Of a stretch of DNA of 64,000 nt, positions 6,521 through 58,914 are shown in pieces. Origin of the DNA: Niallia taxi (lineage in GTDB: Bacteria; Bacillota; Bacilli; Bacillales; Cytobacillaceae); contig NZ_CP102590.1 in assembly GCF_032818155.1 (NCBI RefSeq), positions 434,001-498,000 of the forward strand, given 5' to 3'. The notes under the pieces are model-generated. The model worked only from the letters and a program-made list of their open reading frames with translations. It was not told the origin of the DNA and did no database searches. The position numbers and the translations under genes are program-made. The stretch's first letter is position 1, and the number at the start of each line of letters is the position of its first letter.

Positions 6521-6681
6521 TAATTATTATTTTTTATTACTGATGCCTTCTGCTTTTTTGAAGATGGAAAAACTGGTAAATGTGAAGAATGGTTTAATAC
6601 TTACATATTAGGAATTCAAAAATAATGTTGCAAGCAACTTGTAAGATTACTTAACAAAGTTTTTTTGAATGAAAGCTGGAA

Positions 6682-6720
6682 AATAAAAACAGAGCTGCAC
6701 CAATTTTAGTTTCAGCCCTG
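6682..6720 (-). terminator. Rho-independent terminator of a lost transporter gene
   Basis: On the minus strand an 8-bp stem (CAGGGCTG / CAGCTCTG, one mismatch) is followed by TTTTTATT. It sits just after the stop codon of the sugar-transporter remnant at 6734-6848. Confidence 0.6.
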
Positions 6721-6733
6721 TCTATAAAACTCT

Positions 6734-6848
6734 TTAATTTTGTTTAAAATTCTCCTCAATCTGCTCCAATGACAATCCTCTTGTTTCAGGTAAATATTTT
6801 CCTATAAACACAATCCCTGCGATTGCAAATACGGCGAATAGGAAACAC
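6734..6848 (-). pseudogene. C-terminal remnant of sugar-porter MFS transporter
   Basis: The minus strand encodes a tail that includes FAIAGIVFIGKYLPETRGLS and LEQIEENF before its stop. The PETRGLSLEQIE motif is the diagnostic end of sugar-porter MFS proteins after helix 12. Everything before it is missing: at about 6848 the sequence switches to an unrelated gene tail on the other strand. The natural terminator remains downstream. Confidence 0.75.
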
Positions 6849-6969
6849 TGACTTATCTATTCAAGAGATCACCTATGAATGTGGATTTAACAGTGTGCCT
6901 CATTTCATAAAAATTTTTAAAGAGCATACAGAGTTAACTCCAAAGAAATTTAGGAATCTGCCGTTTTAA
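6849..6969 (+). pseudogene. C-terminal remnant of AraC family regulator
   Basis: The plus strand reads LSIQEITYECGFNSVPHF followed by IKIFKEHTELTPKKFRN and a stop. This is the second helix-turn-helix and terminal motif of an AraC/XylS protein. The N-terminal effector domain and first HTH are absent. The fragment abuts, tail to tail, the sugar-transporter remnant, so one deletion appears to have removed the bodies of both genes. Confidence 0.75.
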
Positions 6970-6975
6970 TGAAAT

Positions 6976-7003
6976 AAGGACCAAGTAATGTTCACTTGGT
7001 CCT
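6976..7003. terminator. Hairpin after the sucrose hydrolase gene
   Basis: A 10-bp perfect stem (AGGACCAAGT / ACTTGGTCCT) lies just past the sucrose hydrolase stop (7011). The minus-side tail is TATTTCATT, so termination strength is uncertain. It would also end the AraC remnant on the plus side. Confidence 0.55.
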
Positions 7004-7010
7004 CCACTTA

Positions 7011-8480
7011 TTATCCCCAAATATCCTCCAGCTCCCAATAAGTAAAATCAATTACTTCTGTCTCCCCGCTTTCACTAAACAATTCAAATCCTAATCTTTC
7101 TTCTGTTGGATAAATACGGCTTGTCATCGTTACTTCTCCATCGTTTGCGAATACCTCTATTGAGGATCTGTCGATAAATACTCTTAAGGAAAGCTGCTGG
7201 TCTGCTTTTAGTGCTGTGTGTCTCACTCCATCTTCCCCTTTTCCAGACTTAGAGCAATCTAGCACTAGCTTTTGCTGTTCCACATTAAATTCGAGCTTGG
7301 TTTCGTCTTGATTGGTGCCGCGAATTTTTAATCCTATTGCTTGGGCGGATGTTTTCGTTAAGTCAAAATCGAGCTTTAGTTCGATTAAATCCTGTGTTGC
7401 CTCAACGAGATAGCTTCCAGACAGGCTTTTATCTGTACATACTTTTTGCTGCTGTGTACGCAGTAATGACAGCTCCTCGACAGGCTTCATCAGAATTTTG
7501 TTATTTTCAGAGAGTGTTAATTCTCTTGGCAATGTTAGTGCACCACACCAGCCATCTTCTTTTGTTGGCATGCTGGATTCCCACATATCCATCCAGCCGA
7601 TTGCAATGCGGCGGCCCTTGTCGTCTAAAAGGGTTTGGACTGCATAAAAATCATGGCCATTATCTAATTCCGTGAAGCTGCCTGACTTAAATGCATTTGT
7701 TTTATAATCGTAATCTCCAACCAAATAGCCTGTTTGGAAAAGATTATTATATAAGTCACCTTCTGCTTCCATGCCTTGCGGAGAAAACAGCAAAATATGT
7801 TTGCCCCCAAGCTCAAAGAAGTCTGGACATTCCCACATATATCCTAATGTTCCGTCACTTTCAGCTAATACTCCTACATATTGCCATGCCCGTAAATCCT
7901 GTGATTTATACAGAACAACCTTACCCGTATCCTCCTGTCTTGTACCAATAATCATGTACCAGGAGTCCTCGTGCTTCCATACTTTAGGATCACGGAAGTG
8001 GCCGGAGCCTTCTGCTGGATGCTTAGAGATCACTGGATTTGCTGTTTCCTTTGTGAAAGTAATTCCATCTGTGCTTGTAGCGATACATTGAGATTGGTCG
8101 AGAATATCTTGCTCTTTGTCTAAAAAAATATTGCCCGTATATATTAATGTGAGAACACCATTATCATCGACAGCACTTCCTGAGAAACAGCCATCCTTTT
8201 CATAGGATTCTGTTGGCGCTAGAGCAATCGGCAGGTGCTCCCAATGCACTAAATCCTTACTTTTAACATGCCCCCAATGCATTGGTCCCCAATTTTCATC
8301 ATATGGATGGTGCTGATAGAATGCATGATATTCACCTTTATACTGGACTAAACCATTCGGGTCATTAATCCAGTTGGCTGGTGCCATAATATGAAAGCCT
8401 AGTCTGTATCGTTTATTTAATTGTTGCTTTGCATTTTGGATTGCTTGTTCTGCCTGCTGAAGTTTATTTGTTGTTAACAT
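7011..8480 (-). CDS. GH32 sucrose hydrolase (invertase / sucrose-6-phosphate hydrolase family)
   Basis: A 489-residue glycoside hydrolase family 32 enzyme. The nucleophile aspartate is in WINDPNGL (about residue 41), FRDPKVW supplies the transition-state Asp, and the acid/base glutamate is in WECPDFF. The C-terminal half has the beta-sandwich signature LRVFIDRSSIEVFAND. There is no signal peptide, so it acts in the cytosol. Its partner 12 bp upstream is a non-phosphorylating LacY-type permease, so the real substrate is probably free sucrose (CscA-like) rather than sucrose-6-phosphate. Confidence 0.9.
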   Translation of the reverse strand: MLTTNKLQQAEQAIQNAKQQLNKRYRLGFHIMAPANWINDPNGLVQYKGEYHAFYQHHPYDENWGPMHWGHVKSKDLVHWEHLPIALAPTESYEKDGCFSGSAVDDNGVLTLIYTGNIFLDKEQDILDQSQCIATSTDGITFTKETANPVISKHPAEGSGHFRDPKVWKHEDSWYMIIGTRQEDTGKVVLYKSQDLRAWQYVGVLAESDGTLGYMWECPDFFELGGKHILLFSPQGMEAEGDLYNNLFQTGYLVGDYDYKTNAFKSGSFTELDNGHDFYAVQTLLDDKGRRIAIGWMDMWESSMPTKEDGWCGALTLPRELTLSENNKILMKPVEELSLLRTQQQKVCTDKSLSGSYLVEATQDLIELKLDFDLTKTSAQAIGLKIRGTNQDETKLEFNVEQQKLVLDCSKSGKGEDGVRHTALKADQQLSLRVFIDRSSIEVFANDGEVTMTSRIYPTEERLGFELFSESGETEVIDFTYWELEDIWG

Positions 8481-11239: not shown

Positions 11240-11869
11240 TTATTGTTCTGTAGTTAAAGCTGAGTCTGCTTCTTCTAATGCATCTGGATAAACGGTCGTA
11301 TCAAACACTTCACCTGTCGCTTCGTCTTTTATATCAATATTTATTTTCATTTTATCCATATCTTCACCGTTAAAAAGATTATACATCATTCCTGTTATGC
11401 CAATGCCGATAACAGACCAAGCATCCATGCTGTTTTCGTATGCAGCTTTGTCTACTGTCATCGTAAACTTAGAAAAGGATTTATTATGATCAATATCCTT
11501 AACTGATGGGAAGGTACCATCTGTTTTTATTTCTTCAAGAGAATCTTCCGCGTTCTTTTTTAAGTCCTTCATCATTTGTTTATGCTCTGATTTAGACATT
11601 TTATACGTTAAAGACCCATCTTCATTTTTTGTTACCTCAATACCTTCTGCTTCCGCTTCTTTAATCGTACTTTCAATATCCTGACCTTCAACAAAGGATG
11701 CTGGCATCGTAATTTCTACATTTAGCAGGCCTTTATCCACTGCAAACTCCTCAGACTCCTCTGTTTCCTTCTCGTCATTAGACGTCTTGCTTGCCTCTTT
11801 TTCCGCACCACATGCAGCAAGAGCCAAAATAGCCATTGCTAAAAGTAGTGAATAACTCCATTTCTTCAT
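11240..11869 (-). CDS. Putative lipoprotein of unknown function
   Basis: A 209-residue protein with a lipoprotein signal peptide: MKKWSYSLLLAMAILALAAC, with the lipobox cysteine at residue 20. An acidic Ser/Glu linker (about 25-45) follows, then a domain with charged helices and a predicted beta region toward the C-terminus (KINIDIKDEATGEVFDTTVY). It should be anchored to the outer face of the membrane. I do not recognise the soluble domain. It appears to be monocistronic. Confidence 0.75.
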   Translation of the reverse strand: MKKWSYSLLLAMAILALAACGAEKEASKTSNDEKETEESEEFAVDKGLLNVEITMPASFVEGQDIESTIKEAEAEGIEVTKNEDGSLTYKMSKSEHKQMMKDLKKNAEDSLEEIKTDGTFPSVKDIDHNKSFSKFTMTVDKAAYENSMDAWSVIGIGITGMMYNLFNGEDMDKMKINIDIKDEATGEVFDTTVYPDALEEADSALTTEQ

Positions 11870-11977
11870 AAGTAAGAATCTCCCCGCTGTACTATATTTT
11901 GTATTTTTACGTACGATAGTACAATACCACTTATTAGGATATTATTCTAGTAATGTACAAATTTAGGAAGCTTTCCT

Positions 11978-12334
11978 TTACTGAAGATATATAACTTTAT
12001 CAAAAGATGAAAGAAATACTTCTGTACCATCTTTTTCGTAAGTAGTCGATGCTCCTTCTCTTTTCTTCTCCTGCCAACCCCATATACGAATTACAAGCCA
12101 ATAATAGGGAGTAATACTATCAGTTTCAGAAGCAGCCCACCACTTATATTCTTCATACCTATTTTCTTGATCTGCTTTAACAAGGTTTGCTGCTAACGGA
12201 ACTGGAAATCCTGCGAACATTTCTGACTCTTGATAGTAGAAGAAAAAGTAATAAACCGAAAAGATAAAAATGGTAGTACAGATAGTGCTTGCTATTTTTC
12301 TCTTTTTTGTTCGAAAAAATGCTGATAATCTCAC
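11978..12334 (-). CDS. Small single-pass membrane protein, unknown
   Basis: I place the start at a GTG (12332-12334) because GGAGAG lies six bases upstream and the longer frame would run into the neighbour's terminator. The 118-residue product (starting MRLSAFFRTKKRKIASTICT) has a positive N-terminus, one hydrophobic segment (about residues 14-36) and an extracellular part rich in aromatic residues with YKWWAASETDSITPYYWLVI. No known function; a role at the cell surface is possible. Confidence 0.6.
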   Translation of the reverse strand: MRLSAFFRTKKRKIASTICTTIFIFSVYYFFFYYQESEMFAGFPVPLAANLVKADQENRYEEYKWWAASETDSITPYYWLVIRIWGWQEKKREGASTTYEKDGTEVFLSSFDKVIYLQ

Positions 12335-12451
12335 GGTAATCTCTCCTATCCCCTTTTCGGTAATAGACGAAAAACCTTCCAAATAGTTACAATAATAACA
12401 TTTATCCCTATTTACTTTTAAACTATATAGAATTCCTTTGTACACTATAAG

Positions 12452-31706: not shown

Positions 31707-34700
31707 TTAGCTTAATTTCCTTGTCAATACAAGCACATTAACAGAATTAGCTGCTAATTTAACAACCGCTCCATTTTCCTTCAGACTGATTTGTGTTTCG
31801 ACTGGAACAATTTGCTCGGCATTCTTTTTATTTACGTTTGGAGTATGCACAAGCGATTCTTCTCCTGTAACAGTAATCATTTTGCCTGCTGTATCAACTT
31901 GAAGGTCTTTTATTTCAAGCTTCGTCTCTTTTACAAATGGATCAGCATTAACTAGCTTAACGTATACATGATTATCGTCTTTCGTAACAGAGTGGAAAAT
32001 GTCTCGGTTATAGGCTTCCAATTTATAATCAAGTTCTTTACTTGTGAAGCTTCCATCTGTGTAGGAACAGATTAGACGTTCTCCTTTACTGCCGCCATAA
32101 TTGACTGTGATCGTATAGAGCTTATTATCCTCAAGCTCCTCGTAGCAGCTTGCACGTAAATTGCCTGCTGCGGTGCTTGATGAATAGTCGCCAAGCATAT
32201 AGCCTTCTATTCCTTGCTTATGAACCTTTACTCCTGTTGCGTTACCATTATAGCCGATAGCATATTCTATAACGTCCTTTGTTTCTGGTGAAATATCAGT
32301 CAAGCCGACACCAACATAGATACCGTCATTACCGGAAATCTTTGCGGCAACGACTTCTACTTTATAATTAGTCCAAGCTTCATTTTTTATATATAAGCCG
32401 TTTAGTCCGCCGTTTTGCGGCTGTAATACTAGGCCTCTTTCTTCATCAATTGAGTATCCTGCTGAGCCAGGAATGTTTTCCCAGTCAGGAAGCAAGTCTT
32501 TTCTGAAATCCTGTTCAAACAATATTTCACCACTTATATTACTTATAACCTTGACTGATTTCACTTCGACTTCTGCACTTCCTGCAGCTATTTCAATACC
32601 GCCCTTTGGTGCAAGCTCAGTTAAGCTCCCATTTTGATAAGAAGAAAAGGAAGTTCCTAAAAGCTTTGTTCCAAGATATTTGCCAAACAGCTGCTGCACA
32701 TAGTAGTTTGGTGTGTACCAAACTGTTTCATCGTCAAACCAAATTAAATCAGGTGTCCATCGGTACGTTCCGTCTGTGAGTACTTTATTGAAAAGTGGTG
32801 CATATGCAACTAAACGAACGACATCTGAATTCCTTTCAAATCCGGTCATTACGGCAGCTTCTGCAATTGCACCGGCAAGTGTATTTTTATCTGTTGAGGC
32901 AAATTCGCCAACAAACACTTTAGAAATATCAGTTTCGTTGATACTTCCGTCTTGTTGATATGCTCTGTAGTAATAATTATATCTGTCTGCATTGTTTAAC
33001 AAATACTCATTAGAACGATAATAATGCTCATCGGCAATTGTATCCATGTAATGTGGCTGCTTTTCATACCATGTAATATTTTCTTCTGTTTCGTTCTGTC
33101 CATCTGTGAAGGTAACTGTTGCTGCTTCTGTCAGGTTGCCGCTTAGGAATTTCCAGCCTTCCTGGTACGCATCATCGTCTGCTTGAGCACCAACTGTTGA
33201 AATGATTTGCAAGTGATGGTTTGGATAATTAGTTTTCATATATTCATCAATGGCAGCTTTAAAATATTCAAAGTTAGCAAAGAACTCTGTACCCCAGTTT
33301 TCATTTCCTACCCCTAAATATGGGAGCTCGAATGGTGCTTCATGGCCCATTTGCTTGCGTAATACAGCCCATTCGTTCTCTTGAAAATCTGTGCTGATCG
33401 CAAAATCAATTAAATCTGTAAAGCTCTTAACATAATAATCTCTCAGCTCTCCACCAGCAGGATGGACATAATCAGATCGGGCCTGACAAAGCACACCACA
33501 CGCCATAACAGGCAATGGAATGGCATGTAAATCTTCTGCCAGCTGGAAGTATTCCATATAGCCTAACCCCATTGTCATCATATAGCCCCATACATTAAAG
33601 TTTTCCTTGCGCAGCTCCACAGCTCCAACAGAATCCTTCCATTCATACACATTGTCCCAAATGTAGGAGCCCTCTGAAATACAGCCTCCAGGAAAGCGCA
33701 AGAAGGTTGGATGCAAGTCGACAAGTGCATTCACCAAGTCCTTACGTAAGCGATAGTTTGGATTTCCTTGATAATTAGTGTGGGCCGTAGCTGATCTTAC
33801 TTCCTCACCAGCTCCCCAAACATCCTTTGGTATCAAGGAGACCATATCGATGGAAATTTCACCATCAAAGGATAAGACAAGCTGACCTAATACCGTTTCA
33901 GAACCAGTAAGGACAATCTTTGTATTTCCGCCATATTTCTCCCACGTATTCATTCCATTAACCTCAATAGTTACACTGCTGCTAATTGGGTTCCCATGCT
34001 TATCCTGAAGCTGTGCTGTAATCCTTCCAGCTTCCGTCGCTTTCGCCCATATCGTGAAATGGTAATCGTCTCCTTCTTTAATAAACATCGCACACTGATT
34101 GTTTGAATCGGTGAAGCCTTTATTAATAAGAGTGCTGCCATGTGGGACTGTAATATAATGAGAATTCACCTCTTTATCTGTGATTCCAAAAAACTCATTC
34201 AAGCCTCCTGTATTGTTGACTGTTACAGAATTAGTATCGCCAAACCAAGCATGTAGCGGCTGTCGGTTTCTTCCTGTTGAGCACCCGCAAGCTCCAGAAT
34301 GGTGTGAATATGTATCGAATTCGAAGGATTCAAAGGAGCGGTTTTGAACTAGCTCTGCATAAATCCCGCCATCTGCAGCGTTATTAATATCTTCATAGAA
34401 AAGTCCGTACATTGTTTTGCTTATATCTAAAACCTCGTCATTGCCATCAATCGTTAATAAATGAGATGGAACTCCCTCAGGCAGGACAGTCAGCGGAAAC
34501 TCTTTTTCTGCAGTGTCATGTCCTTTTCTTAAGATAGCTGTCAAGGTAACTCCAATCGGCTTATCAATTTTTCCAACTACACCTTCACTTGTTAGTGCTG
34601 CTGAATCACTGGATTTCCATGTGACAGACACGTTTCCACCCATTAAAAATTTAGTAAGGGCAACATTTTTTGAAACAACCGTTATTGGAAAGGCTAAATA

Positions 34701-35462
34701 CTTATCTTTAGCAAGCTGAACAATTTCTGCATCTGTAAGAGACTCACACATTACCTCAATTACTTCATCCTGTGTCAGTCCAGCCTTATAAATGCGGAAA
34801 TCAGAGACAGAGCCGTTAAAGTCAGCATCTGCTTCAAATTGTGACTTACCGATAAAATTATTGCTGTAGTTGTCCGGATAAGAAAAGGTATCGAACCAAC
34901 TGCGCAGCTTAGCATATGTGCCACTTGACGTTTGGCTGATTGATCCGTCTGCAACAACTTCACCGTTCACGTAAATAACAGGGCCTGCACTGCTTAGCCT
35001 TCCGCCTTCTGTGCCGCTGACACTCATCGCCACATGAAGCCATTCACCTGCAGAGTAAGTTCTGCCTGCATCTGCGATAAGGTCTGAGCCGGAAAAACAA
35101 TTGCCTCTGAAATTCCGAGTCAAAAACAGGTACGGTCCTGTTTCTCCTTTTCCAAAATCAAAAATCCGCTCCCATACATTTGAGCCTTTTCCTAAATAAA
35201 GCCATGTGCTGACAGTTATCCCTGTGTTATCATCAATATCCGCAAAAACCCCTGCAGGTAACCTTAAATAAGATGTGCCAGATTTTCCACCTGACAATGT
35301 AACAGAAGACCTTCCGCCAATTGCTTCTATTACTGGTGGTACAGTTCCTTCAGCAGTAGCTTGATTGCCATTATCGGAAACATCTTTTCCTATATTATTC
35401 GGATCATTAAATGGATATTGAGCAATGATTAGTTCTTGCAGTGAATTGCTGTTTCGATTCAT
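31707..35462 (-). CDS. Multi-domain GH51 alpha-L-arabinofuranosidase
   Basis: A 1,251-residue enzyme that releases arabinose from plant polysaccharides or their fragments. Order: a LamG/concanavalin-like domain (about 10-230), an Ig-like segment (about 250-330), the GH51 catalytic region from about 340 (MYGLFYEDINNAADGGIYAE) with an inserted carbohydrate-binding-like sandwich (about 400-550), then a C-terminal sugar-binding-like domain (about 990-1,180). The acid/base Glu is in YLGVGNENWG (about 719) and the nucleophile in VFVGEFAS (about 849). No signal peptide is visible, which is odd for so large a polysaccharide-binding enzyme. Confidence 0.85.
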   Translation of the reverse strand: MNRNSNSLQELIIAQYPFNDPNNIGKDVSDNGNQATAEGTVPPVIEAIGGRSSVTLSGGKSGTSYLRLPAGVFADIDDNTGITVSTWLYLGKGSNVWERIFDFGKGETGPYLFLTRNFRGNCFSGSDLIADAGRTYSAGEWLHVAMSVSGTEGGRLSSAGPVIYVNGEVVADGSISQTSSGTYAKLRSWFDTFSYPDNYSNNFIGKSQFEADADFNGSVSDFRIYKAGLTQDEVIEVMCESLTDAEIVQLAKDKYLAFPITVVSKNVALTKFLMGGNVSVTWKSSDSAALTSEGVVGKIDKPIGVTLTAILRKGHDTAEKEFPLTVLPEGVPSHLLTIDGNDEVLDISKTMYGLFYEDINNAADGGIYAELVQNRSFESFEFDTYSHHSGACGCSTGRNRQPLHAWFGDTNSVTVNNTGGLNEFFGITDKEVNSHYITVPHGSTLINKGFTDSNNQCAMFIKEGDDYHFTIWAKATEAGRITAQLQDKHGNPISSSVTIEVNGMNTWEKYGGNTKIVLTGSETVLGQLVLSFDGEISIDMVSLIPKDVWGAGEEVRSATAHTNYQGNPNYRLRKDLVNALVDLHPTFLRFPGGCISEGSYIWDNVYEWKDSVGAVELRKENFNVWGYMMTMGLGYMEYFQLAEDLHAIPLPVMACGVLCQARSDYVHPAGGELRDYYVKSFTDLIDFAISTDFQENEWAVLRKQMGHEAPFELPYLGVGNENWGTEFFANFEYFKAAIDEYMKTNYPNHHLQIISTVGAQADDDAYQEGWKFLSGNLTEAATVTFTDGQNETEENITWYEKQPHYMDTIADEHYYRSNEYLLNNADRYNYYYRAYQQDGSINETDISKVFVGEFASTDKNTLAGAIAEAAVMTGFERNSDVVRLVAYAPLFNKVLTDGTYRWTPDLIWFDDETVWYTPNYYVQQLFGKYLGTKLLGTSFSSYQNGSLTELAPKGGIEIAAGSAEVEVKSVKVISNISGEILFEQDFRKDLLPDWENIPGSAGYSIDEERGLVLQPQNGGLNGLYIKNEAWTNYKVEVVAAKISGNDGIYVGVGLTDISPETKDVIEYAIGYNGNATGVKVHKQGIEGYMLGDYSSSTAAGNLRASCYEELEDNKLYTITVNYGGSKGERLICSYTDGSFTSKELDYKLEAYNRDIFHSVTKDDNHVYVKLVNADPFVKETKLEIKDLQVDTAGKMITVTGEESLVHTPNVNKKNAEQIVPVETQISLKENGAVVKLAANSVNVLVLTRKLS

Positions 35463-37846: not shown

Positions 37847-38614
37847 TCATTTCATCACTAACCCGCCATCCACATATATGCATTGTCCTGTAATAAATGC
37901 AGCGAGGTCGGATGCTAAAAATAGAGCACTGCCTGCGATATCCTCTGGTTTCGCCAAACGGCCCATTGGTGTCATGTGAATGATCGATTCTCTGACAGAT
38001 TCCTGCGTTTCAGAACTAGAGTCTGTCGGGTATGTCAGGCCAGGCGCAATGGCATTGACTGTTATTCCGAAAACCCCTAGCTCCTTAGCCAAGTTTCTGG
38101 TGAAGCCTAACAGCGCCATTTTTGAGGTTGTATAGTCATGATATGGAATAACGGGAAGTTCTATTAAATTTGTAACAATATTAATGATTCTCCCGTTCGT
38201 TTGCTCTTTCATATAAGGCATTACTGCCTTGCAGACATTATAGGCTCCGTGTACATTACCCTCCCACTGGCTGTTGTAATCCTCCCAGCTGATATTCCAC
38301 GCTGTTTTCCGTGTTTTTGGATTAAAGGTGTAGTGGCTTAGTGCATTATTGACGACAACATCAATTGTGCCAAACAAATCACCAATTTGAGTAATCATAT
38401 TGGCAACTTGTTCCTCTACTTGAACATCTGCTTGTATGGCTGCTGCCTGTCCGCCGTTTGCCTCAATTTCCTTTACCACCGAATCAGCGAGAGTCTTGTT
38501 TTTTAAATAGTTAATAATAACAAAGGCACCTTCTGCAGCAAACTTCTTTGCAATTGCAGCGCCAATGCCTCTGCTTGCACCAGTAACCAGCACGACTTTT
38601 TCCTGAAGATTCAT
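37847..38614 (-). CDS. SDR family oxidoreductase (last gene of TPP-riboswitch operon)
   Basis: A 255-residue short-chain dehydrogenase of the FabG-like group. The NADP-binding motif is VTGASRGIGAAIA (about residue 9), NNAL replaces the usual NNAG, and the catalytic Tyr and Lys are in YHDYTTSKMALLG (about 155). The serine normally before it is replaced (INIVTNLIELP). It follows the LuxC-like gene by 14 bp. In this operon it would reduce an aldehyde made by the LuxC-like enzyme to an alcohol; a fatty-acid role is less likely given the thiamine control. Confidence 0.8.
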   Translation of the reverse strand: MNLQEKVVLVTGASRGIGAAIAKKFAAEGAFVIINYLKNKTLADSVVKEIEANGGQAAAIQADVQVEEQVANMITQIGDLFGTIDVVVNNALSHYTFNPKTRKTAWNISWEDYNSQWEGNVHGAYNVCKAVMPYMKEQTNGRIINIVTNLIELPVIPYHDYTTSKMALLGFTRNLAKELGVFGITVNAIAPGLTYPTDSSSETQESVRESIIHMTPMGRLAKPEDIAGSALFLASDLAAFITGQCIYVDGGLVMK

Positions 38615-38628
38615 CTATACACATCCTT

Positions 38629-40089
38629 TTACTCGACATCCTCGTCGTATTTTTCCATCTCATATTCAAGGTTTCTTTCCATATCAACCATCCGAACAAG
38701 CTCGATAAGATTAAAACCACCGTCATGATGCCAGCCTGGTTTTGCTGAATTCATTTCACCAATCGGGCAAAACCGATTAACACCAACAGCACCTAACAGA
38801 CTTGTAATAGAAAACAATCTGGCCGGTTCAACAGCCAAACCGCACGACTGAAGGTATGTCTCATAAGATTTAAGAAGATCCGCTGCCGCTTCCAGTTTGT
38901 CGATTGCATATACATGAACAGTACGATTTAAAGGGGTTCCGCTAAAGGCTGGTTCTTCCTGATAAATAACTGTCCAAGCTGTATCCTCTTTACTACTGTA
39001 GACCGCTACTTTATCCGAACTTAAGCTTTTCAGATGATATTGATTGCGAATGTTTTGAATGGCCATTGCCTCTTCGCCTGTTAATCTTGCTCTAGGTCTT
39101 TTTAGATGATACCGTTCAAGCTCTCCAGCCAATCCTTGGGCGAATTGCTTCGGGCTTAGCGCCCCATCCTTTTCTACATAGATTACTTGAGGCGAAAGGC
39201 AGCTTTGCTGGTCGTAAATGGACACATCCTCAGCCACCTTATGCAGAGTTTTAGCGAAATGATCGGCTGTTAATGCTTCCTTGCCGATTAACGCCATACT
39301 TATCTTATGTCCATATGACAGCAGCTTCTTATGTACAGGTGTTCTTTTTTTGATTGCCTCTACTGTTTGATTAGATCCATACACAATAACAGCCTCACCC
39401 CAATCAACGGCAGCCTGTTCCAGCTCCACTGTTCCACCCTTCCACGGTATAACTGCCATAGATTCAGCTAAGGCCTCGTCCACTTCTTTCAGTGCCTGCA
39501 GAAATAATACAGGTAAAAGCGGCTCTGATAATGAGGTTTTTCCAATTGCAGCTGATTTAAGCAAAAGACCCATCACTAAACTCCATAGCTGCACACCTGG
39601 CACATTTCCTGAAAAAATATGAAATATCGTGCTTGGACCAAAGGCTCTGCTCATTCCCCCTGACTTTCTTGGGCGAAATTCATCCAGTATTGCAGGCTGA
39701 TCAAATTCCTCATCAAGAAAACGAAGGAGCTCTCTCTTGCGGAATGTCCGCATATATTTTTTTAGCTCGAGGCGTACCATATCGCTATCATAGCCAGTAA
39801 TTGCAGGAACAAGGGATTCGGCTAATTGTCTTAATGCATAATCAGGATTGAGCCAAAGCTGTATTACTTTATCGATTTTAGCCACTATTTCACTTGTCGG
39901 AAGGGTTGCTAAATAAGTCCTTCTATTTTCCTTAACTGCTGCAGCTATTTCCTGAAGCTCCTGTTTCTGAATAACAGGATATCTTAATAGGTAATTTACT
40001 CCGTTTACAAAGATAGGTTTTTCCTGGAAATTTTTCAGTTTAATAGAATTGGGCAGATAAAAGGCATCAACGATTACATGATTGCTCAC
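38629..40089 (-). CDS. LuxC-like acyl-CoA/acyl-enzyme reductase
   Basis: A 486-residue member of the LuxC reductase family, which reduces an activated acyl group to an aldehyde with NADPH. The aldehyde-dehydrogenase-like fold is marked by HIFSGNVPGVQLWSLVMGLL, GKTSLSEPLLPVLFL and the active-site Cys in DQQSCLSPQVIYVE (about residue 295). It overlaps the LuxE-like gene by four bases. No luxA, luxB or luxD is in the window, so light production is excluded. Its substrate is probably a carboxylate linked to thiamine. Confidence 0.85.
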   Translation of the reverse strand: MSNHVIVDAFYLPNSIKLKNFQEKPIFVNGVNYLLRYPVIQKQELQEIAAAVKENRRTYLATLPTSEIVAKIDKVIQLWLNPDYALRQLAESLVPAITGYDSDMVRLELKKYMRTFRKRELLRFLDEEFDQPAILDEFRPRKSGGMSRAFGPSTIFHIFSGNVPGVQLWSLVMGLLLKSAAIGKTSLSEPLLPVLFLQALKEVDEALAESMAVIPWKGGTVELEQAAVDWGEAVIVYGSNQTVEAIKKRTPVHKKLLSYGHKISMALIGKEALTADHFAKTLHKVAEDVSIYDQQSCLSPQVIYVEKDGALSPKQFAQGLAGELERYHLKRPRARLTGEEAMAIQNIRNQYHLKSLSSDKVAVYSSKEDTAWTVIYQEEPAFSGTPLNRTVHVYAIDKLEAAADLLKSYETYLQSCGLAVEPARLFSITSLLGAVGVNRFCPIGEMNSAKPGWHHDGGFNLIELVRMVDMERNLEYEMEKYDEDVE

Positions 40090-41222
40090 GAGAATGATGC
40101 ACCACCCTCGGCTGCCTGCATTAACTGGTCAACAGCAATCGAGCAGCCTCTTGCTTCAGAGCCTTTTATCCTGCCAAGCAGCTGAAACCCTTCGTCTGTT
40201 TGTACACCCTCATCCTGTGTCAAAATTGCTATACATGAATTCCAGTTCGCTAAATCGACATGTGCAATCACACCTTTTGTTCCTTTCTCGACAGGCTTTA
40301 AGGTTTCTGGATCAAGTATGACCGTTCTCACCCAGGCAGGGCCTGCTTTATCATGTATTACTTCACCATTGCAGCTTGACAGTATTGTCTTGTCATAAAG
40401 TTGGGAGCTTAGTTCTGTCATGCCATACATATTGATGCATTTTGATCTGCTGACGTGGAAAAATGCTTGAAAATGCTGATACAGCTCCTCCATTTCTACT
40501 TCACGGGACTGTCCCTTAAACCCGCCTGTATCAAATATCCTGCTTCCTTCTGCGAGCTGAAAGTGCAGATTTTCTTCTTGTAAATAATCAAGAATATGTA
40601 CATATGCAAATGTTGCGCCAATCAATAAAACCGGTTCTTGCTTTTGCTCACATTTCTGCAATTCCTTTATCAATTCTTCCATGTCTAACCCGTTTTCTTT
40701 AAATAATAACTTGCTGTCCTCTGTACCGAAGTTGGCTACAGCATTTGATAAATACCTAGAAAGTGAAGAGTTTTTATTCAAATCCTCTGCAGGTGAAAGT
40801 ACTAACATTGTCAGCTTCTCTTTATCTGGCATAACAAATTGTTTAAATGGATATTTCATAGAAGCATCCCAAACGCGTAATGTCGGGTGATAATTTCGGC
40901 CCTTTTGTTCAGGATTTGTTGTTCCACTTGTCATAAATACTGCTTCTGTCTCATCTGCCGGTTCACAGGATAATGTCAGCTCCTTATAGCCTTGAATCGG
41001 CATTGGTGGAATATGTAACCAATGCTTAACAGTAAGCGGTGTCCTTTTCTTTGTCTGACAGTATTTTTTATATGGCAAGTTATGCTGAAATTGATAGTTA
41101 AATAGCTGCAGTGACAGCGTATTAAAATCTTGTTCATATTCTTCCAGTTCTTGAAAGCCCTCTTTATATTTATCTATAAATAAGAGAATATCATTTGTTA
41201 TTGCCATGGCTCTCTCTTTCAT
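40086..41222 (-). CDS. LuxE-like acyl-adenylating enzyme
   Basis: A 378-residue acyl-protein-synthetase (LuxE) family protein that activates a carboxylic acid with ATP and hands it to the reductase. The AMP-binding loop is FMTSGTTNPEQKGRNYH (about 92), with NMYGMTELSSQLYD (about 265) and a late LLGRIKGSEARGCS. It overlaps the NCS2 permease stop (ATGA). It shares an operon with the LuxC-like and SDR genes, giving a complete acid to aldehyde to alcohol route. Confidence 0.85.
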   Translation of the reverse strand: MKERAMAITNDILLFIDKYKEGFQELEEYEQDFNTLSLQLFNYQFQHNLPYKKYCQTKKRTPLTVKHWLHIPPMPIQGYKELTLSCEPADETEAVFMTSGTTNPEQKGRNYHPTLRVWDASMKYPFKQFVMPDKEKLTMLVLSPAEDLNKNSSLSRYLSNAVANFGTEDSKLLFKENGLDMEELIKELQKCEQKQEPVLLIGATFAYVHILDYLQEENLHFQLAEGSRIFDTGGFKGQSREVEMEELYQHFQAFFHVSRSKCINMYGMTELSSQLYDKTILSSCNGEVIHDKAGPAWVRTVILDPETLKPVEKGTKGVIAHVDLANWNSCIAILTQDEGVQTDEGFQLLGRIKGSEARGCSIAVDQLMQAAEGGASFS

Positions 41223-42541
41223 TTTCCTGTCCCCTTTCTAAACCAATTTGGGATATTAACAAACAATAGCTGCAGAATAATCGAACTGAATGCTCCAATT
41301 AAAATTGTATTAGAAAGGAACGTTCCAGCAGCACCAGTTAGTCCTGTTGCAAAGCTCGGCAATGAAATTGCCAGCAGTATAGATAATCCTATAATCATAT
41401 AGTTACAATCATTTTGTTCTACCTTTGCTAATAGCGAGATTCCGGTAAATATTAATGTTGCAGCAGCAGGCAGAAAAATCCCGCCAACTACTGGACTTGG
41501 TGTTAAAGCAAGCAACGCTCCTGCTTTTGGCACAAATCCGAGGATAAGAAAAATAACTCCTGCAATCATCACTGGATATCTTGAACCAACACCTGTTAAA
41601 CGAAGGAGGCCAACGTTTTGAGCATATGCAGTCGTCGGAAAGCCGCCAATCAGTGAGGAAAGCATGGAACCAGCCGATTCACCAGCAAAGCCATTTCTTA
41701 TCCGCTTTGCATCTATTTCTGTTTTTAATATTGTGGACGATGCTTGATAAACACCCATTGCTTCAATCACTGCCACAATATAAGCAACAAAAAATGTTAT
41801 AAATGTCGTCCATTCAAACTCCAGTCCTCCATACGGCAAGAATGTCGGAAGACCGAACCACGGCTTTTCTGCTATCATCGAATAATCTGCTTTTCCGAGG
41901 AAAATTGCGATAATATCACCAACAACTAATGCAATAAGAAAAGAAAATGATTTCAAATACCCTTTTCCAAATATCGATAGAAGGAGAACGATACATGCCG
42001 TCGGAATCGACATCATTAATATCGCTGGACTGGCAAAACCTTCGTCACCTGGTGCTCCACCAAGGAATTCTGATAGTGTAAAGCCAGACAATGAAATCCC
42101 GACTAAGAAGATAACAGTTCCCGATATCACTGGAGTAAACAGCACCTTTAATCTGCCAAGCAACCCAGTGATTGAGAGGATAAATACGATTATCGCACTC
42201 ACAAGAATTGCTCCGCTCGCTGCAGCAAGCCCATTTGCTTTTCCGGCAGCTATCATGATGGAGTCAAACGCCGCTGACGGACCTTGAACGATTGGCAGCT
42301 TCACAAATCTGGCTGCTTGCAGCAATGTGACAAGCCCTGCTGCAATAAAAATCGAGTTTACTAGATTTGCAGATAAGGCAAAAGGCAGACCAATCATCGC
42401 TGCTACAAAGATAGGATCAAGCCAAACATTGGAAACAAAGACATGCTGCAATCCGTATAGAAAGTTTTTTAATGGTGGGAGCTTTTCTTCAAGCCCCACT
42501 GTTATTTGTTGCTCATCTGTTTTTGGTGTTATTTCTGTCAT
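41219..42541 (-). CDS. NCS2 (uracil/xanthine-type) permease in thiamine-controlled operon
   Basis: A 440-residue, 14-segment nucleobase:cation symporter. The substrate-site motif is VYQASSTILKTE, and the NCS2 signature GGFPTTAYAQNVGLLRLTGVGSRYP-like region includes TTAYAQNVG (about 310). LPIVQGPSAAFDS lies in an early helix. NCS2 carriers move uracil, xanthine or urate, but here the gene is second in a TPP-riboswitch operon. It may carry a pyrimidine fragment of thiamine or an oxidised derivative; that is inference. Confidence 0.85.
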   Translation of the reverse strand: MTEITPKTDEQQITVGLEEKLPPLKNFLYGLQHVFVSNVWLDPIFVAAMIGLPFALSANLVNSIFIAAGLVTLLQAARFVKLPIVQGPSAAFDSIMIAAGKANGLAAASGAILVSAIIVFILSITGLLGRLKVLFTPVISGTVIFLVGISLSGFTLSEFLGGAPGDEGFASPAILMMSIPTACIVLLLSIFGKGYLKSFSFLIALVVGDIIAIFLGKADYSMIAEKPWFGLPTFLPYGGLEFEWTTFITFFVAYIVAVIEAMGVYQASSTILKTEIDAKRIRNGFAGESAGSMLSSLIGGFPTTAYAQNVGLLRLTGVGSRYPVMIAGVIFLILGFVPKAGALLALTPSPVVGGIFLPAAATLIFTGISLLAKVEQNDCNYMIIGLSILLAISLPSFATGLTGAAGTFLSNTILIGAFSSIILQLLFVNIPNWFRKGTGK

Positions 42542-42576
42542 CTTTTTCTCCTTTTATACAAGCAATAGCTTGCCTT

Positions 42577-43086
42577 TTATTTCTTAAGCCAACCTGCATT
42601 TGTTAGCACAATTGATTGTTTTTTTACAAATACACTTAAAATAATGAAGCCTAGCAATGCACCGGCAATCGAGCTGAAGATAAACAGCGGGATGAATCCA
42701 AAAAGTGTCGCTTTTTGCCCAAGCAGCAAGGCAGCTATCGGATATGCCAGCATTGCGCCAAGTACACCTGTACCAACAACCTCCCCAAGAAATGCCATAT
42801 ACAGCTTCCTTGTCTTTAAATACAGGAAGGATGCTAACAATGCACCAACCATGCTTCCTGGGAATGCAAACAGAGAACCTGTTCCCAACATATTTCTTAA
42901 CAGGGAGACGCTAAATGCTTGGAGCACTGCATAATAAGGTCCTAGCATTACTGCTGAAAGTACATTAAGAAAATGCTGGATAGGAAAGACCTTTGTAAAC
43001 CCTATCGGAATAAAAAACAGATTGCTTGTCATTGTTCCAATCGCAACCATCATCGCTGTTAATGTGAGCTTCCTTGTTTTGTCCAT
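42577..43086 (-). CDS. thiW: ThiW, ECF transporter S component
   Basis: A 169-residue membrane protein that binds a thiamine precursor, probably thiazole, and uses a shared ECF module for uptake. I start it at MDKTRKLTLTAMMVAIGTM because GGAGGGA and the riboswitch platform point there. Family marks are FIPIGFTKVFPIQHFLNVLS, GPYYAVLQAFSVSLLRN, GSLFAFPGSMVGALL and GEVVGTGVLGAMLAYP. It is the first gene after the tandem TPP riboswitches and leads a five-gene operon. Confidence 0.85.
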   Translation of the reverse strand: MDKTRKLTLTAMMVAIGTMTSNLFFIPIGFTKVFPIQHFLNVLSAVMLGPYYAVLQAFSVSLLRNMLGTGSLFAFPGSMVGALLASFLYLKTRKLYMAFLGEVVGTGVLGAMLAYPIAALLLGQKATLFGFIPLFIFSSIAGALLGFIILSVFVKKQSIVLTNAGWLKK

Positions 43087-43120
43087 AAAAAAATCCCTCC
43101 AGTAAAATAGCACTGAGGGA
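43087..43120 (-). terminator. Riboswitch expression platform: terminator covering the thiW ribosome site
   Basis: On the minus strand TCCCTCAGT and ACTGGAGGGA pair and are followed by seven T. The 3' arm is the GGAGGG ribosome site of thiW, so the hairpin can both end transcription and hide the start. Confidence 0.75.
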
Positions 43121-43155
43121 AAGGGTAGCCAAAAAAACAGCTATCTCCAAGTGAA

Positions 43156-43246
43156 CACTTTCCTACGCTGGCATTATCCAGTTCAGGTCCAAAAGGGTCA
43201 AGACAAAAATGTCTACTCTCAGCCGATAATTCCGGCTCCCCCAGTG
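43156..43246 (-). ncRNA. TPP riboswitch, gene-proximal copy
   Basis: Read on the minus strand it has the THI-box blocks in order: CACTGGGGGAGCC, GGCTGAGAG, ACCCTTTTGGACCTGA, ACTGGATAATGCCAGCG and TAGGAAAGTG. The closing stem is CACT/AGTG. It should sense thiamine pyrophosphate and control the terminator just downstream. Confidence 0.92.
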
Positions 43247-43281
43247 CGATAAAATTATTTAATTGCCATGCTTACAAACAT

Positions 43282-43313
43282 AAAAAAAGCCAGATCTTAA
43301 AAAGACCTGGCTT
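43282..43313 (-). terminator. Terminator between the two TPP riboswitches
   Basis: On the minus strand AAGCCAGGTCTT and AAGATCTGGCTT form a 12-bp stem (one wobble) followed by seven T. It is the expression platform of the distal riboswitch. Confidence 0.85.
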
Positions 43314-43341
43314 AAATAGCAGTAAACAAATTACTTCACTG

Positions 43342-43435
43342 ACTACTTTCCTACGCTGGCATCACCCAGATCAGGTCCAAAGGGTTAAAAAAATCATTTT
43401 TTCTCTCAGCCCTCTTTCTGGGCACCCCTAGTAGT
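43342..43435 (-). ncRNA. TPP riboswitch, promoter-proximal (distal to gene) copy
   Basis: On the minus strand: ACTACTAGGGGTGCCC, GGGCTGAGAG, AACCCTTTGGACCTGATC, TGGGTGATGCCAGCG and TAGGAAAGTAGT, the full THI-box order with closing stem ACTACT/AGTAGT. Each copy has its own terminator, so the pair should act in series. Confidence 0.92.
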
Positions 43436-43460
43436 TAAATCATATGTAAAATTCAGATTA

Positions 43461-43489
43461 AGCATAAACCTAACTTGTGCTAATGTAAA
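43461..43489 (-). promoter_or_regulatory. Promoter of the thiW-lux-like operon
   Basis: On the minus strand TTTACA (43484-43489) and TATGCT (43461-43466) are 17 bp apart. Transcription would begin near 43453, about 20 bases before the first riboswitch. Confidence 0.6.
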
Positions 43490-45587: not shown

Positions 45588-46727
45588 TTGGGAATTCTGA
45601 TTGTTGATGATAATGAGGCTAATTTATTCGTTATCGAAAAGTTGCTTCAGCGTGCCGGGTATATTGATTATCTGTCGTTTACTTCCGCACAGGATATGTT
45701 TAACTACTTATATTCAGATACCCCATACGTTATTGAGAGCCAGGTGGATGCTATCTTAATGGATATCATGATGCCGGAAATTGATGGAATAGAAGCATGC
45801 AAACAACTCCAGCAAGTTGAGCATTTAAAGGATATACCTGTTATTTTTGTAACAGCTTTAGAGGATTCAAGCAAGGTGGTCGAGGCTTTAGATGCAGGTG
45901 GCACAGACTACTTAATGAAACCGATTAACAAAACGGAGCTGCTTGCCAGACTTCGAGTGGCCATCCGCTTAAAATATGAAAAAGATTGGCATAAAAAGCA
46001 GGAGGAAAAAATCCGCAATGAGCTTGAGCTGTCTACACAAGTGCAAACAAGTGTATTAAGCCGTCCAATTTATAAAGAGAACCTGCTAATAAAGGCATCC
46101 TATGTGCCTGCATTTCAATTGGCAGGAGATATGTATTTCTGGTATGAGATAAGTGACCACCGTTATGCCGCCATTCAGCTTGATATGATGGGACATGGAA
46201 TTTCGGCCTCGCTTGTTTGTATGTTCATTTCCTCGGTATTGCGTGATACTATTCAAACAAATCCTGATCCTGAGTATGTTATACAAGATTTAAATCGCAG
46301 GATGAGTACGCTTAACTCAAATCAGAAAATACCTTATTACTTTACAGCAATTTATTTAGTGTTAGATACGAATGAACGAACGATAGAATACATAAACGCC
46401 GGGCATCTCGACGGCTATGCTTTAATTGATGATAATCATATAGCGGAACTAAAAAGCAACACTACAGCTGTCGGTTTCTTTGACGATATAAAAACAAAAA
46501 AGAATATTATTACATACTCTGAATCTATACAGCTTATCCTCTGCACAGATGGTGTACATGAGGCCATTGATAAATATGGTCAAACAGGGATTGATTGTAT
46601 CAAGGAAGCGGCTTCATGCCGACTTGCTGAAGCAAAACTATCTGAACCAATCGACTTAATTACATCTAAGGATCATCAAGACGGTGCCACAGATGATATG
46701 TGTGTAGTTCTTATTCAAGCAAATTAA
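45588..46727 (+). CDS. rsbY: RsbY-like response regulator with PP2C phosphatase domain
   Basis: A 379-residue protein with a TTG start behind GAGGGG. Residues about 1-125 are a receiver (LIVDDNEANLF, phospho-Asp in AILMDIMMPEIDG, Lys in YLMKPINKTE). Residues about 165-378 are a SpoIIE/PP2C phosphatase (LAGDMYFWYEI, AIQLDMMGHGISASL, LILCTDGVHEA, GATDDMCVVL). In the B. cereus group RsbY dephosphorylates the anti-anti-sigma factor RsbV and so frees sigma-B. The kinase and methyltransferase partners are convergent at 46745-50370. Confidence 0.85.
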   Translation: MGILIVDDNEANLFVIEKLLQRAGYIDYLSFTSAQDMFNYLYSDTPYVIESQVDAILMDIMMPEIDGIEACKQLQQVEHLKDIPVIFVTALEDSSKVVEALDAGGTDYLMKPINKTELLARLRVAIRLKYEKDWHKKQEEKIRNELELSTQVQTSVLSRPIYKENLLIKASYVPAFQLAGDMYFWYEISDHRYAAIQLDMMGHGISASLVCMFISSVLRDTIQTNPDPEYVIQDLNRRMSTLNSNQKIPYYFTAIYLVLDTNERTIEYINAGHLDGYALIDDNHIAELKSNTTAVGFFDDIKTKKNIITYSESIQLILCTDGVHEAIDKYGQTGIDCIKEAASCRLAEAKLSEPIDLITSKDHQDGATDDMCVVLIQAN

Positions 46728-46733: not shown

Positions 46734-46767
46734 AAAGCAGTGTCCTAATAAGGAACACTGCTTTTTT
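46734..46767. terminator. Shared bidirectional terminator of rsbY and rsbM
   Basis: AAAGCAGTGT and ACACTGCTTT form a 10-bp stem with T tracts on the plus strand. The stop codon of the minus-strand rsbM-like gene lies within the loop. Confidence 0.85.
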
Positions 46768-47566
46768 TGCGGAATAATTTTTCCTGGATGTTAAAATTTT
46801 CAAAGTAGGCAGAATCACTGCGTATTGTCTCTTTGCTGCCTAATCCAAGAAAACCTCCTGCACTCAGGCTTTCATTAAATAAGTTGTATACTTGCTGCTG
46901 TAATTCAAAATTAAAGTAAATCAGCACATTACGGCATATAATTACATGAAATTCATTAAACGACCTGTCCGTTACTAGGTTATGCTGTGCGAACACGATA
47001 TTTTTTAGCAATGTAGAATGTAACACCGCTCCATTGCTGTCTGCTGTGTAATATTCAGAGAAGGATCTTTTCCCGCCTGCAGCAAGATAGTTTTTCGTAT
47101 ATGCCTGCATTTTCGGGAGTGGAATCACTCCCCCAGCAGCTTTTTCCAATACAATGTCATTCATGTCTGTTGCATATATCTTTGTTTTGTTAGCCAAGCC
47201 CTCTTCCTCTAGCAGGATTGCCATGGAATATGCTTCCTCCCCAGTAGAACAGCCTGCATGCCATACTCGGATTTCAGGCAGCTTTCTTAAAACAGGAACT
47301 ACCTCTTCCCGAAATGCCTTAAAAAAGGATGGATCTCTGAACATTTCCGTAACATTTATGGAAAAGTCTCGCAGCAGCTTGTGCAGCACGTCTTCATCAT
47401 AGATAATCCTTTCTGTTAGGCCAGTAATAGTAAGCAGCTTCTCTCTGCTTAAGCGATTCTGAACACGACGCATCAAGGAGGAACGCATATATTGCCTAAA
47501 GTCATAGCCAGTAAGTCTGTAAACAGCTGTTAAAAGTAAGTCTAATTCAATTTCTTCTTTTTCCAT
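46745..47566 (-). CDS. rsbM: RsbM-like CheR-type methyltransferase
   Basis: A 273-residue SAM-dependent methyltransferase. The CheR N-domain (LLLTAVYRLTGYDFRQYMRS, residues about 9-28) is followed by the SAM motif VWHAGCSTGEEAYSMAILL (about 100), KIYATDMND and VIICRNVLIYFN (about 210). There are no chemotaxis genes around it. It lies between the RsbY-like and RsbK-like genes, as in the B. cereus group, where RsbM methylates RsbK and dampens sigma-B activation. Confidence 0.85.
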   Translation of the reverse strand: MEKEEIELDLLLTAVYRLTGYDFRQYMRSSLMRRVQNRLSREKLLTITGLTERIIYDEDVLHKLLRDFSINVTEMFRDPSFFKAFREEVVPVLRKLPEIRVWHAGCSTGEEAYSMAILLEEEGLANKTKIYATDMNDIVLEKAAGGVIPLPKMQAYTKNYLAAGGKRSFSEYYTADSNGAVLHSTLLKNIVFAQHNLVTDRSFNEFHVIICRNVLIYFNFELQQQVYNLFNESLSAGGFLGLGSKETIRSDSAYFENFNIQEKLFRKKSSVPY

Positions 47567-57833: not shown

Positions 57834-58664
57834 TTATTTACGATTATTTAATCCTTCAAACTCATCCATCTTTCCACAAATCTCCGTTTGTGTGGTTTTA
57901 ACGACTTCCTGTGAATTTTTCGTTACATCACTTACTCTAGTTACTTCTTTTGAAATGTTTTCAATGTTATTATTTATTTTTTTAATAGCTTCTTCTACAC
58001 TACCGGCTAATTTTCGTACTTCCTTCGCAACAACATTAAAGCCTCGTCCATGCTCACCAGCACGGGCAGCCTCGATTCCTGCATTAAGCGCCAGAATATT
58101 TGTTTGTAAGGAAATATTTTGAATGGATTTAGACAGATGTCTGATTAATTCAGTTTGTTCCTCTAATGAATGAATCGCAATCATATTTTCCTTTGCTGTT
58201 TCTGTGACGATTTCTCCTAAATCAAATGATAGATTCTTTAATAATGAAACAAGCTCTAATGTTTGATTTTCACGTTCTGTAATATCTGTTGCTATCTTAA
58301 GAACATTTGTCACTTCACCTTCGTCTGATAAGACAGGAATGTATGTTGCTTCAAGCCATAATAAGTTGCCTTGCTTACAAACACGTTGGATTTTCTCCTG
58401 AAACTTTAGGCCCTTTCTTAAATTAGTCCAAAGCTCTTCATATTCCTTGCTAGCTTGTAATTCCTCCGTACAGAATTGCTTATGCATCATATCCTTTAAT
58501 ACATGAACATTATAACCAAGTGTTTTCGCAAAATTTTCATTTGCCCAAATGACCCTACCGTTCAAATCAAATTCAACAATAGCCAAATTCGACTCTAATG
58601 CAGCTAAAACAGCATTTCCTTCTAATACTTGAGTACTTATGTTAATTCCAGCAGTTGTGTTCAA
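57834..58664 (-). CDS. Soluble PAS-domain methyl-accepting chemotaxis protein
   Basis: A 276-residue cytosolic receptor with a TTG start behind AAAGGAAG. Residues about 20-130 are a PAS domain ([40 protein letters not shown]) and PAC segment. Residues about 140-265 form a short signalling hairpin ([35 protein letters not shown]). No membrane helix is present. It would couple a small ligand, oxygen or redox to CheA. It is preceded by a sigma-D promoter and a c-di-GMP riboswitch, so it is tied to the motile state. Confidence 0.85.
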
Positions 58665-58802
58665 GTTTCTTCTTCCTTTTTTTCATATATTAGGATACTC
58701 TATATATCCTTAAATATCTCTATTACTAACAACGACGACCAATTCACAGTTAAGCTGATAATATATACATTTATATTAAATTTCTAACTCATAAATATCC
58801 CT

Positions 58803-58878
58803 TTGGTAACCAAGCCATCAAAGCAAAAGCCCAGACCTGCAGTTTTTTAGTCCCTACCCTTCGATAGGTTTGCCTTTT
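58803..58878 (-). ncRNA. Cyclic di-GMP-I (GEMM) riboswitch
   Basis: On the minus strand the order is AAAAGGCAAACC, TATCGAAGGGTAGGGAC, an A-rich stretch, CTGCAGGTCTGGGC, then GATGGCTTGGTTACC. These blocks match the GEMM-I aptamer (GGCAAACC, CGAA loop, GGGAC, late GGTTACC pairing with the 5' arm). The CGCAAAG segment usual after GGGA is changed to CTAAAAAAC. It lies in the leader of the PAS chemoreceptor gene, 140 bp from its start. No classic terminator follows, so control may be translational. Confidence 0.7.
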
Positions 58879-58914
58879 TCATGAATTACTTTTCTATTAT
58901 CCTGTATATACTTT

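Follow-up and report, generated by a model that had tools for sequence, protein, structure and literature searches.

Why do relatives of LuxE and LuxC lie behind thiamine pyrophosphate (TPP) riboswitches, and on which acid would they act? These questions are raised by an operon of Niallia taxi within a stretch of 64,000 nucleotides (contig NZ_CP102590.1, positions 434,001 to 498,000, assembly GCF_032818155.1; henceforth the window), in which genes for a LuxE-like protein, a LuxC-like protein and a short-chain dehydrogenase/reductase (SDR) follow those for ThiW and an NCS2 permease. The original prediction, made from the sequence of the window, was that the cell imports an oxidised thiamine fragment, for example 4-methylthiazole-5-acetate or a pyrimidine carboxylate, and reduces it to the alcohol used in thiamine salvage. 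We now think it fairly probable that the module, as we call the enzyme genes with their carrier, reduces a pyrimidine carboxylate, probably 4-amino-2-methylpyrimidine-5-carboxylate, to 4-amino-5-hydroxymethyl-2-methylpyrimidine (HMP) and thus salvages the pyrimidine half of thiamine.

Five genes behind two TPP riboswitches

The operon comprises five tightly packed minus-strand genes in the order thiW, NCS2 permease, luxE-like, luxC-like and SDR (Table 1). Gaps of 35 bp and 14 bp separate thiW from the permease gene and the luxC-like from the SDR gene, respectively, and the permease/luxE-like and luxE-like/luxC-like pairs each overlap by 4 bp. Both aptamers exceed the RF00059 gathering score of 54.3, confirming that, as originally described, five genes spaced by gaps or overlaps of at most 35 bp follow two TPP riboswitches. 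The candidate terminator hairpin after aptamer 1 folds with a z-score of -5.63, and the hairpin after aptamer 2, which would cover the GGAGGG ahead of thiW, with z-scores of -3.23 (40-nt piece) and -2.10 (60-nt piece); the two aptamers probably work serially, one controlling transcription and the other translation. The thiW open reading frame (ORF) was listed as 42577-43113, and reading of the sequence points to the ATG at 43086, behind GGAGGG, as the likelier start. A promoter scan did no better than shuffled sequence (14 found versus a shuffle mean of 13.8).

Only seven TPP matches, six of them above cut-off, occur in the 5.29-Mb genome to which the window belongs (G000), making it very unlikely that two were placed before this operon by chance. 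The other matches lead to tenA with a ykoE-type permease, to a ThiY-type binding protein, to a gene of the TenI/ThiE family, which precedes an ORF resembling by eye the FAD enzyme ThiO and has ThiG nearby, to the thiamine transporter YuaJ/ThiT and, for the match just below cut-off, to thiM and thiD. ThiC was not found in this genome.

The encoded proteins fall into recognizable families. ThiW belongs to the energy-coupling factor (ECF) S components (TIGR02359, 175.2 bits versus a cut-off of 84.35). The LuxE-like and LuxC-like proteins pass the Pfam cut-offs and possess both acyl-carrying cysteines, which places them, as judged from sequence, among the acid reductases of the LuxC/LuxE superfamily. 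Cys360 of LuxE is invariant in all 81 alignment rows, Cys297 of LuxC in all 80 rows with a letter at that position, and all 70 rows for the SDR keep Tyr161 and Lys165. In alignments with the LuxE/LuxC complex PDB 7xc6 (E values of 2.6e-19 for LuxE and 4e-26 for LuxC), the two cysteines fall at its 'GCS' and 'QQAC' motifs, the cysteines of which carry the acyl group in luminescence. The window LuxE is 95% identical to LuxE of Niallia taxi. Scores for the NCBIfam luminescence equivalogs stayed far below their cut-offs (LuxC, NF052251, 124.3 versus 750; LuxE, NF052244, 87.1 versus 550). The operon is not a lux operon with luxA and luxB: just as the original prediction had it, none of six proteins encoded between 37847 and 44573 (the operon and the next gene upstream) matched a luciferase family. 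Present annotations of the module genes read 'CoF synthetase', 'long-chain fatty acid--CoA ligase' and 'acyl-CoA reductase' (GO bioluminescence).

Table 1. Features of the operon, in order of transcription; positions are those of the window.
Feature	Position	Strand	Evidence
TPP riboswitch aptamer 1	43331..43439	-	RF00059, 85 bits
Intrinsic terminator hairpin after aptamer 1 (putative expression platform)	43287..43313	-	12-pair stem then T-run
TPP riboswitch aptamer 2	43143..43252	-	RF00059, 72.9 bits
Hairpin predicted to bury the thiW ribosome-binding site (putative expression platform)	43094..43120	-	Fold of 43083-43122
thiW, ECF transporter S component, predicted thiazole carrier	42577..43086	-	PF09512, 189 bits; TIGR02359
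NCS2 permease, predicted pyrimidine-acid carrier	41219..42541	-	PF00860, 256 bits
LuxE-like acyl adenylate synthetase/acyl-protein synthetase, acyl-acceptor Cys360	40086..41222	-	PF04443, 103.9 bits
LuxC-like acyl-thioester reductase, catalytic Cys297	38629..40089	-	PF05893, 391.2 bits
SDR oxidoreductase, predicted aldehyde reductase giving alcohol	37847..38614	-	PF13561, NF006393

The LuxE-LuxC pair, its riboswitch and its carriers

A LuxE profile made from 23 sequences recovered at least 419 confirmed relatives in named genomes. The best 80 of these were kept as the locus set and assessed for TPP association with a covariance model built from 13 aptamers in the window and in eight of the 80 loci. 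LuxC follows LuxE in every locus, and 77 of the 80 have a TPP riboswitch upstream on the same strand. The remaining three gave no match even at E values up to 10, and all three are cut by contig ends: in L057 and L088 the contig begins within the first gene, and in L044 it begins inside an upstream ORF (1-312) that by eye looks like the end of ThiF, as found in L052. The weakest matches are those of L080 (25.7 bits, E 0.015), L086 (31.6 bits) and L111 (36.1 bits, truncated by the end of its contig). The Rfam model itself scored above its gathering score in all eight loci tested, which are the same eight used in building the covariance model, and it also matched in L052, L143, L146 and three plasmid loci. 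In some operons thiamine genes stand between riboswitch and module, namely thiM, thiD and thiE in L042, L049 and L053, and thiO, thiG and others in L052. With hosts among the Bacillota, Bifidobacterium, Pseudomonadota and Methylomirabilota, among others, the operon is a conserved arrangement across distant bacterial groups and not a local accident.

Some loci elaborate on this plan. Two same-strand TPP riboswitches lie upstream in eight of the 80 (L032, L038, L039, L051, L062, L072, L076 and L099), one preceding thiM and the other thiW in L099. Locus L044 has thiD and thiE after its SDR gene, so that its operon may resemble that of Paenibacillus nasutitermitis (below).

The third enzyme is nearly as constant as the first two. 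An SDR gene is present in 69 loci, and of the 11 without one, 10 end at a contig edge; the other, L077 from a member of the Methylomirabilota, has a Zn-alcohol dehydrogenase (6350-7636) ahead of LuxE, the locus yielding no SDR, a substitution that would fit the aldehyde-to-alcohol step. The same dehydrogenase precedes LuxE in a relative from the same phylum (L071, 251-1276), where the locus is cut.

The module is probably able to spread as a cassette. Relatives occur in 26 of 72,556 plasmid records, among them a 10.3-kb plasmid of Lactiplantibacillus plantarum that holds riboswitch, permease, LuxE, LuxC and SDR (L147, 1390-6321), a 655-kb plasmid of Pantoea dispersa with riboswitch, LuxE, LuxC and SDR (L148, 6734-10279) and an unannotated Azospirillum plasmid with riboswitch and LuxE. 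Viral contigs yielded 36 pattern matches, none of them a relative. The small L. plantarum plasmid also bears a YafQ-type toxin-antitoxin pair and an integrase, and the P. dispersa genes are annotated as long-chain fatty acid CoA ligase, acyl-CoA reductase (GO bioluminescence) and SDR.

By comparison with the enzymes, which are the constant part of the module, the carrier varies. An NCS2 permease gene precedes LuxE in 39 of the 80 loci, three of which also have ThiW, and ATP-binding cassette (ABC) transporter genes occur in 32, after LuxC in 31 (one with ThiW) and before LuxE in one. The ABC set includes an NMT1-type binding protein in 27 of the 32 loci, and the other five are cut by a contig end. 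No carrier was seen in eight loci, of which L071, L080, L095 and L110 are cut and L102, L105, L107 and L109 have an uncut gene set. In the LuxE tree one half is largely NCS2-linked and the other ABC-linked, with a swap at L045 and the Methylomirabilota pair in the NCS2 half. The NMT1-type protein of L099 matches ThiY, which binds N-formyl-4-amino-5-aminomethyl-2-methylpyrimidine (PDB 3ix1, 1.7e-10), and yeast THI5; the L085 protein likewise matches THI5, and also the thiamine-related 2x7p. In two of the carrier-less loci (L102 and L107, from Erwinia and Enterobacter) an alpha/beta hydrolase gene (11415-12356) follows that for the SDR.

ThiW, on which the original prediction had placed much weight, is found in just five of the 80 operons and is the sole carrier in one. 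It stands apart from the module in Leuconostoc L062, where ThiW and ThiM have their own riboswitch and NCS2-LuxE-LuxC-SDR another, and again in Tuberibacillus L042, in which ThiM, ThiD and ThiE are nevertheless in the operon of the module. A search for co-occurrence of thiW, luxE-like and luxC-like genes with TPP riboswitches, as first suggested, thus bears out the enzyme pair and the riboswitch and leaves thiW usually absent; lux-like genes separated from thiW in all relatives, which were to count against the idea, are nearly what we see, the conserved partner being the TPP riboswitch. What gains support is the broader proposal of a TPP-controlled set, tied to a carrier, that would reduce a carboxylate, in view of the riboswitch coupling and the conserved acyl cysteines.

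Which half of thiamine does the module serve?

Thiamine genes were profiled in 50 genomes from the 80 loci, an E below 1e-90 being taken as a clear ThiG. ThiG is present in 47 of these genomes, ThiC in 33 and ThiM, over its cut-off, in 41; the three without ThiG (Tuberibacillus calidus, Leuconostoc carnosum and Fructobacillus broussonetiae) are also without ThiC. There are 14 ThiG+ ThiC- genomes and no ThiC+ ThiG- genome, and the nine in which ThiM stays below cut-off are all ThiG+, five of them also ThiC-. As expected if the module supplies pyrimidine, hosts retain the thiazole branch and can be without ThiC (exceptions are G147 and G058 of the family set, discussed below), and, contrary to what salvage of thiazole would require, ThiM is not present in all of them.

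These profiles weaken the thiazole acid as substrate. If the module reduced 4-methylthiazole-5-acetate, taken up by ThiW or other carriers, to hydroxyethylthiazole for phosphorylation by ThiM, then ThiW in the window operon and in five of the 80 loci, thiM inside the module or next to it in six of them and in L146, and the ThiC+ ThiG- genome G147 would all be readily understood. Retention of ThiG, the missing ThiM, the pairing of ThiW with ThiM under a separate riboswitch in Leuconostoc L062, and NCS2 and NMT1-type carriers, which suggest a pyrimidine, argue the other way, and we regard the thiazole acid as unlikely. Of the two substrates named at the outset, the favoured example therefore fits poorly and the pyrimidine carboxylate fits best.

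Support for the pyrimidine carboxylate comes from particular hosts. ThiG is present, and ThiC, ThiM and TenA were not found, in five genomes: P. nasutitermitis, two Limnohabitans and two metagenome-assembled genomes (MAGs) of Comamonadaceae. In such hosts pyrimidine is the missing half of thiamine. The operon of P. nasutitermitis runs on one strand from a TPP riboswitch through a TenI/ThiE-like gene, thiO, thiS, thiG and thiF to NCS2, LuxE, LuxC, SDR, thiD and thiE, so that the module occupies the place at which a pyrimidine source is needed. In the three Comamonadaceae loci examined, thiD comes next after the module, on the opposite strand, with thiO, thiG and thiE beyond it (thiS was read in one of them, L143); the four genomes of this family have 1, 1, 2 and 1 TPP matches, the sole match of G200 lying below the gathering score.

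As a control we turned to 151 genomes of the family to which the window belongs, counting G027, which has a weak and different LuxC match, as module-free. With ThiG and ThiC abbreviated as G and C, the 23 genomes with the module divide into 12 G+C+, 9 G+C- and 2 G-C+, and the 128 without it into 57 G-C-, 36 G+C+, 29 G+C- and 6 G-C+. The module is associated with ThiG (21/23 versus 65/128, Fisher p 1.9e-4) and, less strongly, with ThiC (14/23 versus 42/128, p 0.018), related genomes not being independent in either comparison. ThiC loss alone was rejected as proof, ThiG+ ThiC- genomes being common without the module as well (29/128 versus 9/23).

Several observations weigh against a pyrimidine substrate. 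In the family control, module-bearing and module-free genomes have similar ratios of G+C- to G-C+ (9:2 versus 29:6). Of the 17 ThiC- genomes profiled, 11 encode TenA (it was not found in the other six); tenA and a gene for a ThiY-type protein occur in the genome of the window, and another TPP operon of P. nasutitermitis encodes a ThiY-type binding protein, a permease and an ATPase (named from their sequences). With such genes in many hosts, other pyrimidine routes exist there. Absence from MAGs is weak evidence. G147, called 100% complete, is a ThiC+ ThiG- module genome with the order TPP-thiM-thiD-thiE-TPP-thiW-LuxE-LuxC-ABC-SDR, which a thiazole substrate explains easily and which ThiW together with ThiM can explain too; G058 (88% complete) is likewise ThiC+ ThiG-. 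The six loci with thiM in or beside the module are L042, L045, L049, L053, L069 and L099, five of them also with thiD and thiE. Lastly, NMT1-type binding proteins are a broad family: 3ix1 is not among the matches of the L085 protein, and the best PDB matches of both the L099 and L085 proteins are unassigned. Given the like ratios and dependent genomes, loss of ThiC counts for less in the case for pyrimidine than do the hosts without ThiM and TenA, the operon of P. nasutitermitis and the carriers.

Three further substrates were weighed. Another pyrimidine-5 carboxylate or a conjugate, from which the alpha/beta hydrolase of Erwinia and Enterobacter may first free the acid, would accord with the hydrolase genes in L102 and L107 and with the lack of a visible carrier in L102, L105, L107 and L109; the hydrolase matched in only two of the 80 loci and its operon membership is a guess from spacing, and we hold this alternative to be improbable. 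Thiamine acetic acid is a known oxidation product, and its conversion back into thiamine would suit both the carboxylate-to-alcohol chemistry and the TPP control. Salvage of intact thiamine would have no need of the thiD and thiE found beside the module in several loci, and retention of ThiG in 47 of the 50 genomes further weakens this substrate, leaving it very unlikely. Least likely of all is a fatty or other unrelated acid, with TPP control serving a different product, for although Pfam and PDB both point to the long-chain acid reductase of luminescence as the relative, the equivalog scores lie far below cut-off and the coupling across phyla is to TPP riboswitches, NCS2 and NMT1-type carriers and, in some loci, thiD, thiE or thiG.

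Elsewhere in the window are a cyclic di-GMP-I riboswitch (58802-58884, minus strand, 39 bits; gathering score, 35) upstream of an ORF of 276 aa (57834-58664), an alpha-L-arabinofuranosidase of 1251 aa with lectin-like and Ig-like domains (31707-35462, minus strand), and a response regulator with a SpoIIE-type phosphatase (45588-46727, plus strand) beside a CheR methyltransferase (46745-47566, minus strand).

A proposed route to HMP and its known counterparts

How might the module yield HMP? At low TPP the two riboswitches would permit expression of the operon, and the NCS2 permease (elsewhere an ABC transporter with an NMT1/THI5-type binding protein) would import oxidised thiamine pyrimidine, most likely 4-amino-2-methylpyrimidine-5-carboxylate. 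LuxE would adenylate the carboxylate with ATP and hand the acyl group via its own Cys360 to Cys297 of LuxC, LuxC would release the aldehyde, and the SDR would turn it into HMP, to be handled by ThiD and ThiE; in the window, ThiW probably imports thiazole for the other half. In the established pathway ThiD phosphorylates HMP and ThiE joins HMP to thiazole. We infer the substrate, the direction and every enzymatic step of this route from the observed gene order, riboswitches, conservation, conserved cysteines and co-occurrence with the thiazole branch. According to its title, the paper of Neal and Pearson (1964), listed in the references of PMC7780320, concerns this acid as a metabolite of thiamine in the urine of the rat. 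Passages of PMC12637900 describe Limnohabitans as HMP auxotrophs without thiC that need pyrimidine and name TenA as a possible route; TenA was not found in the four Comamonadaceae genomes analysed here, Limnohabitans included.

To the wider proposition, that this is a new B1 salvage pathway, present in at least four phyla and plasmid-borne, which recovers 4-amino-2-methylpyrimidine-5-carboxylate by LuxE, LuxC and SDR and in some bacteria has replaced ThiC as the only visible TPP-controlled pyrimidine source, we give about an even chance. Among the open-licence papers listed, judged by title and opening of the abstract, a set that leaves subscription comparative-genomics papers on thiamine uncovered, we found no account of LuxE or LuxC in thiamine metabolism; the parts are known, and the pathway that they appear to form is undescribed in the literature covered. 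HMP auxotrophy is called the commonest version of B1 auxotrophy in marine microorganisms in PMC11452348. Should the oxidised pyrimidine be a usable B1 source, ThiG+ ThiC- bacteria such as Limnohabitans, some lactobacilli and Niallia could live on it. To our knowledge, this compound is not routinely measured. The route, if true, would also assign a function to genes whose present names are misleading, and a LuxC/LuxE pair for small aromatic acids would be of interest to biocatalysis.

Four known systems share features with the proposed pathway. As described in part of PMC5627462, TenA/ThiY/YlmB salvage converts base-degraded thiamine pyrimidine to HMP under TPP control, with NMT1-type uptake; the pathway proposed here would likewise bring the pyrimidine half to HMP under TPP control and with NMT1-type uptake, but TenA/ThiY/YlmB hydrolyses an amine, whereas the module would use ATP and NAD(P)H to reduce a carboxylate. 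ThiW-ThiM thiazole salvage shares ThiW and the TPP riboswitch with the window operon and differs in that ThiW is so rare among the modules and that nine of the 50 module genomes have no ThiM over cut-off. The luminescence LuxC/LuxE acid reductase (7xc6) consists of the same two families, encoded in adjacent genes and with both cysteines aligned; the operon proteins, unlike that system, include no luciferase or LuxD family match and miss the equivalog cut-offs, and the operon adds TPP control, a nucleobase-type carrier and an SDR. Finally, carboxylic acid reductase (CAR) is a single A-PCP-R chain. ATP activation followed by NADPH reduction, from acid to aldehyde, is what we propose for the module as well, but the work that CAR does in one chain would here be divided between two separate proteins with cysteine carriers.

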